A DNA stretch of 64,000 bases from Corynespora cassiicola (lineage: Eukaryota > Ascomycota > Dothideomycetes > Pleosporales > Corynesporascaceae). Shown here piece by piece: positions 22,785 to 42,532 of this stretch. Numbering within the stretch: the stretch's first letter is position 1; each line of letters starts with the position of its first letter. Under the pieces are notes generated by a model that searched no databases, was not told where the DNA came from, and saw only the letters and a program-made list of their open reading frames with translations. Both the position numbers and the translations under genes were made by a program. The stretch lies in NCBI GenBank assembly GCA_022059125.1, contig JAEUWY010000020.1, positions 806,001 through 870,000 of the forward strand. The letters run 5' to 3'.

Positions 22785-24785
22785 TCACTCCCACGCCCTC
22801 AAGATCTCCCTTACATCCCCCATCTCCTTTTTAATCAAGTCTACATGCCGCTGGCTCCTCGGCGTGAACTTAACCTTGAACGGTGCAGGCCCACAAACCA
22901 TCTTGTCTTCATACGCGTCCAGATCAATATCAATCTTTTCTCCCGTAGCATCAACCGCATGCTCGAGTCGGAACGCCCAAAGAATCCGTGCAACCTGGCG
23001 CCACTGCGTACGCTCAGCGAGCTGGATCCCGGCGCAGATACGGCGGCCAGCGCCGTAATTGTAGTGGTCGCGGTTTTCAAAGTCTTTAGTTCCAGCATAG
23101 TCCCAGGCGAGCTGGGTGTGGTTAAGATAGCGGTCTGGGTTGTAGGTACCTGCATCTTCGTATTTGGAATGGTGGAGGGCCCAATGGGGAATTATGATGG
23201 TTGCATCTTTGGGCTGGAGTTGCGGGTTAGTTGTGAAGTTTGGGTGTGTGGAAGATGGAGTTACGACTTACGATGAGCATGCCGTTGTACCAGTTATCTT
23301 GTGTACAGCGGTGGGGGATACCAGTGGGAACTCTTTGCAGGAATGATGTTAGAGGCGGCAAAGGATAGGTAGACGAACAAGAAAAAGGTCTCTGGGGAGC
23401 TGGGAATGGCTGGCTTACACTGGGCGGATGCGCTGGCTTTCCTTGACAATACAATTGATATACGGCATGTCCTTGAAGTCTGAAAAACAAGGAAGCCTCT
23501 CCACACCACAAACCGCGTCGATCTCTCTCTGCGCCTTGTCCTGCACCGCCGGGTGCGTGGCCAGAAACATAATGTTTGTTTTCGTGGACAAGGCACTCGT
23601 CTCAGCAGCCGCCTGCATCACAGCACCGAGATAATTTGCGAGCATTGTGCCTTGGAACGCAGGATCAAGTTCCTTCTCAGTGCTAAGCAGCTCGTCTATG
23701 AGCGATTCCCGCTTGTCGCCCTGACTGCGGCGCAGTTCGACGCGCTGTTGGGCCTCGGTCCATATCCTTGTGGGAATTTCGAATCCCTCTTGCGCGCGGA
23801 CATAAGAAGGGTCCCATCGACGTGGGATCAGTTTGAAGATGGGGAATTCCTCGGCTGGCAGGTGGGAACCAGGGCTTATGGCGTGCATGATCTAGTGTTA
23901 CCACGGTCAGCTTTCTCAATCCAGAATACAAGAGAGTGGGGTTGCTTTATCGTACTGCCTCCATAGCTTCATAGACGCCCTAAAATGTGTCAGAAATGAT
24001 TGATACAAAGAGACTTTTGGAAGATGGGCTTACTCTCGCCCAAAAGTCATCATTAGACTTGGCACGCTGCCCATACAGCACAATCGCGGTAAACGAAGCA
24101 GTCGATCGCTCGATATGCTTGATGAAGTCCTCGGGACTGACAAGCAGGTCGTGAAGTAATGTAGTGATCCTGCCTTTTGGTCAGTATAACTGTAGGTATC
24201 ATGGCTGTGCTGCTCAGCTCTCAGCAGTTCTGCAACGAACATTACACTTACTCTGCATTTGAAACCTTGTCCAAGTCCCCATCCAGTTTCTCAGGCGCTA
24301 AATAGCGCACTGCAATTTTCCGCTGCATTCTCCAAACAGGAGTCGGGTCCATAAAGGCGAAGTTCTCCCTCATCGCAAGGCGAAACCGTTTGTCTATTGG
24401 CCTTGAGGAGTACAGGGCGCTCCGTTGATCGACGAGCTCGTAGACGGAACGTTTACTATTCAACACGATCATGGTACCTTTTCCGATCTTGAGCGAAAAG
24501 ACGTCGCCGTATTGTATGCTCCATTGTTTGAATCTAGCAACGCGCCAGTTAGTCATTGTTGTTGGCAGCAGCCAGCAGAGAAGGAAAGGAGTGGGTTGTT
24601 ACTTGCTTCTTGAAAAGTTTTGGATCGACGGTGAGGTGCGCATTTCCAATGATCGGCCATGTCGGTGGGCCTGGGGGAAGATGCTTCTCGCGATGGCCGA
24701 AGCGCAATAGTTTGACGACGGCGTAGAGGAAACCCAGCGCCGAGCATACCCAGAAATATGGGAACGGATCTGTTCGAACAATCAT
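22785..24785 (-). CDS. Cytochrome P450 (P450-1), cluster oxidase
   Basis: CDS complement(join(22785..23213, 23272..23332, 23419..23891, 23956..23979, 24034..24169, 24252..24533, 24607..24785)), 527 residues. It is an ER-anchored class II fungal P450. It has an N-terminal membrane helix (FPYFWVCSALGFLYAVVKLL), the proline hinge LPPGPPTWPIIGNAH, I-helix AAAETS, K-helix ESQR, and heme loop YNYGAGRRICAG with Cys445. The YGAGRRIC variant is common in fungal P450s oxidising polyketide-derived aromatics and chains. The first intron must be GC-AG (donor AA|GCAAGT) to join KLFK to FKQWSIQYGDVF in frame; the GT two codons later gives the wrong phase. Exon 4 is only 24 nt (GVYEAMEA). It is transcribed towards the left cluster edge, downstream of the PKS. 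Substrate is unknown. Four 26-bp repeats lie 139-242 bases upstream of its ATG. Confidence 0.9.
24534..24606 (-). other. GC-AG intron of P450-1
   Basis: This 73-nt intron has donor GCAAGT, a TGACTAAC branch site and acceptor TGCTAG. It is the only splice solution that restores the P450 frame. Confidence 0.75.
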
Positions 24786-25533
24786 TGTGCACGATGGTGT
24801 TCCACTGTTCTTGGTAGTTACCGCCTGTGTTGTACACAGAAAGCAAAAAAAAAAAGAGTATGGCGACTGTTTTCCAGGCTATTCGGAGACAGGGGCTATA
24901 TGTATGTCATCCAATTACAGTCGTGATTACCCTGCATACAGTATGCCAATGATTACACTGCATACAGTATGTCGACTATTACCCTGCATACAGTATGTAA
25001 ATGATTACCCTGCATACAGTATGTGAATTATTACTAATTTATACAGGGTACACGCATATAAGTCCTAGCACACTACTAGTATACAGAATAATACTGAAGT
25101 TGGAGTCTATGAAGCAACGCAATGTGGAGCTCCATTTGAAATGGAGAGAGTCTGGACTCCAAGTGGTGGAATGAGACCCAGCTTGGTTACTATGTATCCC
25201 CCCAATGGTGGGACAATTTATCGCGCTGCCATTTTTGTGGACAGAAAGGACTCAGTCAAGTGCACAACAAGGATTTATGGAGCTATGCGATGCCAGGTAA
25301 TTATTTCCACGTAAATTTTATCAGGTTGTTGGATGAAATAAAAGACTACGTGTGATTTCTCATTCCCCAGTACAATACAGCCAGTGTCACCAGTCCCGCA
25401 CATGTCACCAAGAATATATATCCAAAGATAATGTCAAACTCCTGAAAAGCTAGCGATAGACCTAAAGAAATCGGGATAGTTAAGCCTCATTTAGGGGAGC
25501 TAAGACCTACGCCCAGCTGTAACAACCTAGTGT
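24786..25533. other. Spacer between P450-1 promoter and PKS 3' end
   Basis: No gene is seen. It contains the 26-bp tandem array (24924..25027) in the P450-1 upstream region. The remainder is AT-rich. Confidence 0.5.
24924..25027. repeat. Four 26-bp tandem repeats upstream of P450-1
   Basis: Four units in exact 26-bp register. The shared core is ATTACCCTGCATACAGTATG; copies 1, 3 and 4 are identical and copy 2 has one change (ACA for CCC at positions 4-6 as ATTACACTG). Each core contains the near-palindrome CATAC-A-GTATG. A degenerate fifth unit follows (ATTACTAATTTATACAGG). It lies 139-242 bases upstream of the P450-1 ATG. It may be a minisatellite or an array of regulator-binding sites. Confidence 0.85.
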
Positions 25534-40612: not shown

Positions 40613-42532
40613 ATGAAGCATGTGCTGGAAAAATTCCTAGACCGTTTGACTTCTAGTCCCATGTACCATGACGATGATCACAAAACGAAGGCTGTGTTCC
40701 TTTTCGTAACCATCTACCTTGGTTACAGTTTTTGTCTTGGGGTATACCGATGTACGTGTATCCAGACAAGGCCTAGCTTATAACATTCGAGCTGATTTGC
40801 TCGCACACAGTAACGCTTCATCCACTTTCCAGCATCCCAGGGCCCAAACTAGCAGGTGAGAAGGGCTGGGTTTACTCTGCGTCTCCGGGATCTAACCATG
40901 TGCAGCATTTACTTACTGGTATGAAATCTATTACGATGTATGGCTGGGTGGACAGTATTTCCGGCAGATTACGAAGATGCACGAGAAGTATGGCCCAGTC
41001 GTGCGATTCAATCCCAACGAAGTACATTTTAATGACCCTGATTTTATCGACACTTTGTATCCCGGAGCTTCAGGTAGGAAGACTAACAGGCCACTCATGG
41101 TGGGCAAGCGGAGCGGAAGTAAGCAATCTTCATGCTGGACTACATTCCATTCTTTACTGACTATGATATCGCGCAGCTCCGGATTCAATGACGGGTACAT
41201 ACAGCCACGACCTGCATCGGCGCCGGCGCGGGGCCCTGAACCCTTTTTTCTCAGTTGCCAGTGTTCGGAAAGTGGAGCCCACCATCCGGGAACACACAAA
41301 CAAAGTGTTGAGTCGGATGGAGCGGGCGAGCATCACTGGCGAGCCATTGGAGATGAATCTCATGTTCAAGGCGTATGCAAGCGATACCATCGTTCAATAT
41401 GCATTCGGAGACTGCTTCCACTTCCTTGACGACCCCAAATGTGGTAAGCCTTACTTTGAGGCTGTCGACATGTTTTTTGCGCTTAACCATCTTTTTGGCC
41501 ATTGGCCCTGGATCGGGTTCCTAGTCCGGTCGGCGCCAGGCTGGGTGATGAGAAACTTCGGACCCTCGTTGAGGGAGATGTGGGAAAAGAAATTAGTACA
41601 TAAGATGACGCTGCTTCGAAGCACACTGATGCTAACAATGACAGTGGTGGATCCAGAAGGTCCGTGAAATAAGGGCTTCCAACGATCCGGAGCGAGTCAA
41701 GAGTACCATATTTGGTGGAGTGTTGAGCAGTACCCTCCCCGATGAAGAGAAGACTGATTTTCGGCTCGCGAGCGAAACCCAGCTGGTTGTTTTTGCTGGC
41801 GAAGGAACGACAGGTAAGAGGGCACCAGGTTGAACGAGTGGGTGACTGACGTACGATATCAGCACATACCCTCAGTGCCGCCGTATTCGAGCTCCTTTCT
41901 AACCCAGCAACGCTTGAGAAAGCAAAGGCTGAACTCAAAACTGCGATTCCAGACCCCAATGAGATCATTTCCTTTGCTCAACTGGACGGCCTTTCCTATT
42001 TCAACGCAATCATCCAAGAGACCATTCGTTTGCACCCAGGGGTGGTCAGCCGGCAATGGCGCGAATCGCCGGAACCGCTGATTTATAAGGACCAGCGAAG
42101 GGGCGTGGAGTATGTGATTCCACCCGATGTCAGCTACAGCATGACACCCCTAATAATACACCACGACCCATCTGTATTCGAGAACCCGCGCGAGTTCCAG
42201 CCGCAACGATGGATTGATAATCCCAAACTTTCTCGTGCATTCATGGGCTTTTCGCGCGGGCCACGCAGCTGCATAGGGTAAGTCTTACATACTGTATTCC
42301 TTCCATGATAATCTGCTTAGATATACGCTATAGTCTCAATCTCGCGCGCCGTGAGATAGCGGTTCTGTTGGCGACGTTACTCCTCAAATACGATCTATAT
42401 CGTGGCCAGAAGGGTTGCACTCTTGAATTATATGACACGGTGCGCGAGAGGGATATTGATTGCAACGGGGAGTTCATTATTCCTGCTCCTGCTAAAGGGA
42501 GTAAGGGTTTGCGGGTTTTGGTTCGGCATTAG
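40613..42532 (+). CDS. Cytochrome P450 (P450-2), trichodiene-oxygenase-like
   Basis: CDS join(40613..40751, 40811..40855, 40906..41118, 41177..41595, 41645..41813, 41863..42277, 42334..42532), 532 residues. The N-terminal helix AVFLFVTIYLGYSFCLGVYR anchors it in the ER. The block TYWYEIYYDVWLGGQYFRQI, then MHEKYGPVVRFNPNEVHF, is characteristic of fungal P450s annotated as trichodiene-oxygenase-like or benzoate 4-monooxygenase-like. I-helix AGEGTTAHT, K-helix QETIR, PERF-like FQPQRWI and heme loop FSRGPRSCIG (Cys465) are all intact. Exon 2 is 45 nt. Introns 2-6 are 49-58 nt. The last acceptor (CTATAG) is used because the upstream AG gives a stop. It is a probable cluster oxidase; the substrate cannot be told from sequence, and the trichodiene name indicates family only. 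Confidence 0.92.

Follow-up and report, generated by a model that had tools for sequence, protein, structure and literature searches.

Gene Content of the Locus

We analyzed a 64,000-nucleotide stretch of the Corynespora cassiicola genome (contig JAEUWY010000020.1, positions 806,001 to 870,000; hereafter the window) and found it to contain a compact biosynthetic gene cluster. Seven adjoining intact genes encode a highly reducing polyketide synthase (HR-PKS), an alpha/beta hydrolase, two cytochromes P450 (P450A and P450B), a flavin oxidase of the BBE/VAO type, a short-chain dehydrogenase (SDR), and a protein with a basic N-terminal stretch, read in the sequence, followed by ankyrin repeats (bANK) (Table 1). 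The gene models are predictions from DNA alone, for which splice sites and reading frames were traced by eye and checked against relatives. Each spliced model ends in one terminal stop, and the two outer stop codons coincide exactly with the limits of the cluster, 22785 and 42532, given in an earlier note on this DNA. That note had described the same gene set, and Pfam annotation of the cluster proteins (E <= 0.001) agrees with it. We found a p450 domain in both P450s (9e-64 and 2e-54), FAD_binding_4 (2e-14) and BBE (1e-8) domains in the flavin oxidase, adh_short (4e-19) in the SDR, ankyrins (2e-41) in the bANK protein and a hydrolase match of 2e-11. The cluster is confirmed as real.

Table 1. 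Genes and repeat of the cluster in window coordinates
Feature	Position	Strand	Description
P450A	22785-24785	-	527 aa, 7 exons, one GC-AG intron
26-bp tandem repeat	24924-25034		4.3 copies; between P450A and PKS
HR-PKS	25534-33049	-	2403 aa, 6 exons; KS-AT-DH-(MT-like remnant)-psiKR-ER-KR-ACP
Alpha/beta hydrolase, likely DcsB-type	33485-34649	+	304 aa, 4 exons; Ser114, Asp246, His275
bANK protein	35923-36782	+	265 aa, 2 exons; basic N-terminus and ankyrin repeats
BBE/VAO-type flavin oxidase	37104-38956	+	580 aa, 3 exons; signal-peptide-like N-terminus
SDR	39059-39902	-	249 aa, 2 exons
P450B	40613-42532	+	532 aa, 7 exons; CYP682-like per source names of some homologues

The Polyketide Synthase

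The PKS contains KS, AT, DH, structural KR-like, ER, KR and ACP domains, and the catalytic motifs of KS, AT, DH, ER, KR and ACP are all present. Methyltransferase, thioesterase, reductase and carnitine-acyltransferase domains were not found at the Pfam threshold, in line with the claim that the enzyme lacks a release domain. Residues 1255-1415 (exon 27532-32549), located between the DH and the structural KR, align with a similar stretch in 16 relatives and look like a methyltransferase remnant. That this region is shared would fit a single ancient loss of methylation in the PKS clade, and with only a remnant-like stretch in place of a recognizable domain, the polyketide is probably unmethylated, as had been proposed. 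Our PKS search returned at least 6700 matches, with scoring limited to the 7983 candidates that had the most words in common with the query, and the best 120 were used. The closest named protein among these is PTT_07049 from Pyrenophora teres (79% identity over the full length), which has the same domains and the same remnant methyltransferase region, and partial proteins of environmental origin reach up to 93% identity. A quick tree (first 900 residues of 26 of the 120 matches plus the window protein) groups the window PKS with three environmental sequences; beside them stands a group made up of P. teres, P. tritici-repentis and two environmental sequences.

The Hydrolase and Chain Release

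The hydrolase and PKS genes are divergent neighbors, with starts at 33485 and 33049, respectively. A separate hydrolase gene located beside a PKS without a release domain supports the idea of in-trans release. The solved protein closest to the window hydrolase is DcsB (PDB 7d78 and 7d79), with 54% identity and a near-identical fold over the full length. Both enzymes have identical triad residues, and Ser114, Asp246 and His275 are present in the window hydrolase and invariant in 51 of 51 sequences. GrgF, the hydrolase of the gregatin pathway (PDB 6lzh), shares 39% identity over 277 aligned residues and carries a cysteine (GLCFGG) at the position of the serine found in the window enzyme (GLSFGS) and in DcsB (GMSFGG). 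A search with the hydrolase gave 275 matches, and among the best 120, which were used here, the Periconia macrospinosa protein is 97% identical to ours. By this identity, the host would probably belong to Periconia or to a closely related group. In a tree of 38 rows, DcsB groups with proteins from Beauveria, Cordyceps and A. lucknowensis, and the window hydrolase with Periconia, Curvularia and an environmental sequence. With 98% identity, the Beauveria hydrolase P0107 closely matches the 7d78 chain, and Beauveria also has PKS and P450B homologues. We take DcsB to be a lactone-forming thioesterase, and the comparison suggests that the window hydrolase is likely a lactonizing, trans-acting thioesterase of the DcsB type. 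In Lasiodiplodia mahajangana, one predicted protein (P0342, O1611_g7086) joins a DcsB-type hydrolase to a P450B homologue, either as a true fusion or by merger of gene models.

The enzyme had earlier been labeled an AF380-type hydrolase/transferase that might pass the chain to an acceptor. It is indeed an alpha/beta hydrolase encoded separately from the PKS, and kinship to AF380 at the family level is possible; the transfer role is less well supported. In that scenario, the chain would be moved to the hydroxyl group of a separately made acceptor, for which the common hydrolase family and the source name "acetyltransferase fmaC" of a few homologues could be cited. However, DcsB is closer than any other solved protein, and the gene core that recurs in other fungi consists of PKS, hydrolase and P450 (see below). 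Moreover, Pfam annotation of 40 flanking open reading frames (ORFs; 21 to the left and 19 to the right, 39 of them taken from 71 ORFs of at least 150 aa and one shorter) revealed no terpene, nonribosomal peptide synthetase or second PKS gene, although acceptor genes could sit elsewhere. We therefore regard AF380-type transfer as very improbable and best replaced by DcsB-type lactonizing release. Simple hydrolysis, which would free a linear reduced acid to be oxidized afterwards, also appears unlikely. Ser-Asp-His hydrolases can free acids, and our results fit hydrolysis and lactonization alike, but the activity that we assume for DcsB, the closest solved homologue, points to ring closure.

Recurrence of the PKS-Hydrolase-P450 Core

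A search with P450B yielded 451 matches (about 8000 candidates scored); among the best 120, the closest proteins are from P. teres (71%) and Curvularia clavata (68%). We compared the best 120 matches each of hydrolase, PKS and P450B, taking contigs of equal size as a proxy for the same contig, which does not imply proximity on long contigs. Among the matches listed, hydrolase and PKS homologues share 52 contigs, PKS and P450B 53, hydrolase and P450B 42, and all three occur together on 27, for each of which (27 of 27) the species names agree across the three lists. A PKS or P450B homologue is also present on 67 of the 102 hydrolase contigs of at least 20 kb. By the same proxy, C. clavata has its P450B and hydrolase homologues on one contig, Colletotrichum truncatum its PKS and hydrolase homologues, and one environmental contig carries a PKS and a hydrolase with 76 and 80% identity to the window proteins.

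Locus tags place PKS, hydrolase and P450B homologues close together in seven genomes: Monosporascus GIB2 (DL765_000440, 441, 442), Fusarium NRRL 66182 (F66182_964, 963, 961), Blastenia (Q9170_001042, 1043, 1045), Xylaria grammica (EKO27_g8349, 8350, 8357), Sclerotinia nivalis (OCU04_007431, 7430, 7422), Annulohypoxylon FPYF3050 (ABKA04_009322, 9323, 9327) and Parastagonospora nodorum (HBI56_213740, 213760, 213780). Calculated for the window and these 27 contigs, the identity matrices of the three proteins show correlations with r values of 0.86, 0.75 and 0.78, uncorrected for species relatedness, and 0 of 2000 label permutations reach each value. The earlier note could not match this gene combination to a cluster; we find that its PKS-hydrolase-P450 core recurs widely and that the relatives include the DcsB lineage, which answers the question in part. 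A joined Blastenia protein (P0322) considered as a case of SDR conservation was not counted, its SDR part being only 30% identical to the window SDR.

Tailoring Enzymes, Regulator and Surroundings

The solved protein closest to the BBE oxidase is MtVAO615 (387 bits). Its histidine and cysteine positions are presumably those typical of a double flavin linkage, and its N-terminus reads by eye like a signal peptide, so that the enzyme possibly acts outside the cytosol. Together with the two P450s and the SDR, it is consistent with the several oxidations of the product predicted before. A paralogue of P450A is located at contig C4:2970462-2972422, with 47-61% identity exon by exon.

The bANK protein, whose closest paralogue in the genome is distant (next match 49 bits), may be a pathway regulator. 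Its description as TOXE-like holds for the architecture: the regulators ToxE and Apf2 likewise combine a basic region with ankyrin repeats in a secondary-metabolite cluster. The likeness does not extend to binding sites. The ToxE and Apf2 motifs, which we take to be ATCTCNCGNA and TGACGTGA, have one and two perfect matches in the window, each of them beyond the cluster; this is about the number expected by chance.

The cluster sits among genes of other kinds. Pfam matches were obtained for 4 of the 21 ORFs in the left flank (two pieces of an N1221/DUF3402 protein, an FMN dehydrogenase with cytochrome b5, and an AA9 enzyme) and for 5 of the 19 in the right flank (an FAA hydrolase, Ssl1 of TFIIH, a sugar transporter, and PMT and MIR mannosyltransferase pieces). 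The sugar transporter, at about 54 kb in the window and 12 kb from the cluster, is the sole transporter match among the 40 ORFs. The 26-bp repeat within the cluster contains a CATACTGTATG palindrome, and its 22-bp core was not found at any other site of the genome (23 contigs, 44.35 Mb) when up to two mismatches were allowed. Immediately beyond the cluster, at 44878-44970, lies another tandem repeat, with 3.1 copies of a 30-bp unit. On the minus strand at about 42870-44550, P450-like pieces that include a heme-binding-like motif and are spread across frames with stops look like a decayed P450 adjoining the cluster; three ORFs in this region have no Pfam match.

A Diverged Second Cluster

A diverged cluster of similar make-up is located on another contig (C8:2041831-2068017), and Pfam agrees with the assigned families. 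Its PKS is the nearest paralogue of the window PKS (49% identity over the first 1267 residues; next paralogue 39%). Head to head with it lies the nearest paralogue of our hydrolase (35%, 134 bits, versus 36 bits for the next), which has the nucleophile motif GYSFSG. Two genes of the C8 cluster resemble P450B (33-35% identity for the longer matches) and are among its nearest paralogues; tblastn revealed a weak 26% match to P450A and no match to the bANK protein. Because this cluster also has an SDR and a BBE gene, it supports the view that both enzymes would be working parts of such clusters, although both families are common in secondary metabolism and their company could arise by chance. Elsewhere in the genome, pairs of matches with identical scores (C6:231150-235074 and C20:2744825-2748749; C13:40616 and C17:10872; C1:3574634 and C14:51517) suggest that stretches have been duplicated; in one of them, the PKS contains stops.

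A Candidate Nonenolide Pathway

The gene structures and families, the DcsB-level similarity of the hydrolase and the recurrent PKS-hydrolase-P450B core are the observations on which we base our view of the product. It is highly probable that the cluster makes a lactone of some size, and we propose, with moderate confidence, a small antifungal lactone with a ten-membered ring, a nonenolide of the kind to which pyrenolides and modiolides belong. The closest named homologues of the cluster proteins come from known nonenolide producers, at the species level for P. teres and at the genus level for Curvularia and Periconia. P. teres is reported to make the 10-membered lactones pyrenolides A-C as well as the spiro compound D (PMC9503419), with the first report dating from 1980 (references in PMC9503419). 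Curvularia species produce pyrenolide A, modiolides A and B and stagonolide E (PMC9777749), and Periconia siamensis produces modiolide A (PMC4288058), a compound known from several genera (PMC9777749, PMC4288058, PMC9389607). Truncatenolide (C10H16O3) was obtained from C. truncatum (PMC9389607), and a survey of P. nodorum suggested some HR-PKSs as possible makers of stagonolide-like macrolides (PMC4205913). In the accessible parts of the literature surveyed, including PMC7232245, PMC10145764 and PMC6891577, we found no assignment of genes for pyrenolides or modiolides; subscription journals fell mostly outside this survey, which is weak evidence of absence.

Other products of a PKS and a lactonizing thioesterase have to be weighed, such as a macrolide of larger size, a ring of the brefeldin kind or a cyclic oligoester. 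The family is broad, with at least 6700 PKS matches (7983 candidates scored) and 275 hydrolase matches, and proteins from Apiospora and Penicillium vulpinum are among the relatives. Periconia is a known maker of macrosphelides, a type of product that would belong here. We nevertheless consider such an outcome doubtful, as the three genera with the nearest named homologues are all reported makers of 10-membered lactones, as cited above.

Several observations weigh against a nonenolide, or against reading the cluster as one conserved unit. Related trans-acting thioesterases form different rings, as in brefeldin A and phaeospelide, or, in the case of GrgF, other products, and the window hydrolase falls outside the DcsB subclade in the 38-row tree. 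The reported producers mostly differ in strain or species from the sequenced ones, and the coincidence holds at the species or genus level, short of the strain level. The best 120 matches per search included neither a hydrolase from Pyrenophora nor a PKS from C. clavata or P. macrospinosa, so that none of the nearest named genomes showed all three genes together. L. mahajangana has adjacent PKS and hydrolase genes (g1372, g1371), with the listed P450B homologues elsewhere (g8987, g7086). Conservation across species was followed for three of the seven proteins, namely hydrolase, PKS and P450B. In the C8 cluster, the hydrolase is about equally distant from DcsB and GrgF, the SDR (38% over 213 residues) is only the third-best and the BBE protein (36% over 506 residues) only the second-best paralogue of its window counterpart, and a gene on contig C2 is as similar to P450B as the C8 P450s (score summed over exons). 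Finally, no shared promoter motif was found: 6- to 10-mers shared among five promoter regions are no more frequent than in resampled sequences.

For a nonenolide pathway, we infer the following steps, from chain length, lactonization and ring size to the order and place of the oxidations and regulation. The HR-PKS would build an unmethylated, hydroxylated C10 (pentaketide) chain, which Ser114 of the hydrolase would take over from the ACP and close to a lactone with the chain's own hydroxyl group. P450B, and probably P450A too, would then oxygenate non-beta carbons that are out of reach of ketoreduction, C4 of modiolide A being one example. The alcohol and ketone states would next be set by the SDR, the BBE oxidase or both, with the BBE oxidase possibly acting outside the cytosol, and the bANK protein would turn the cluster genes on. 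More tentatively, this may be the unassigned pyrenolide/modiolide cluster and, at the same time, one in which the secreted BBE oxidase forms the final reactive enone outside the cytosol; the milder allylic alcohol would be kept inside, and the antifungal lactone activated only after export.

The type of pathway is already known, and the cluster may supply the genes still lacking for compounds that were known by 1980. With a seven-gene candidate and a cyclase of known fold, the assignment of genes to pyrenolides and modiolides becomes directly testable, and the recurrent PKS-hydrolase-P450 core provides a handle for related lactone pathways across fungi.

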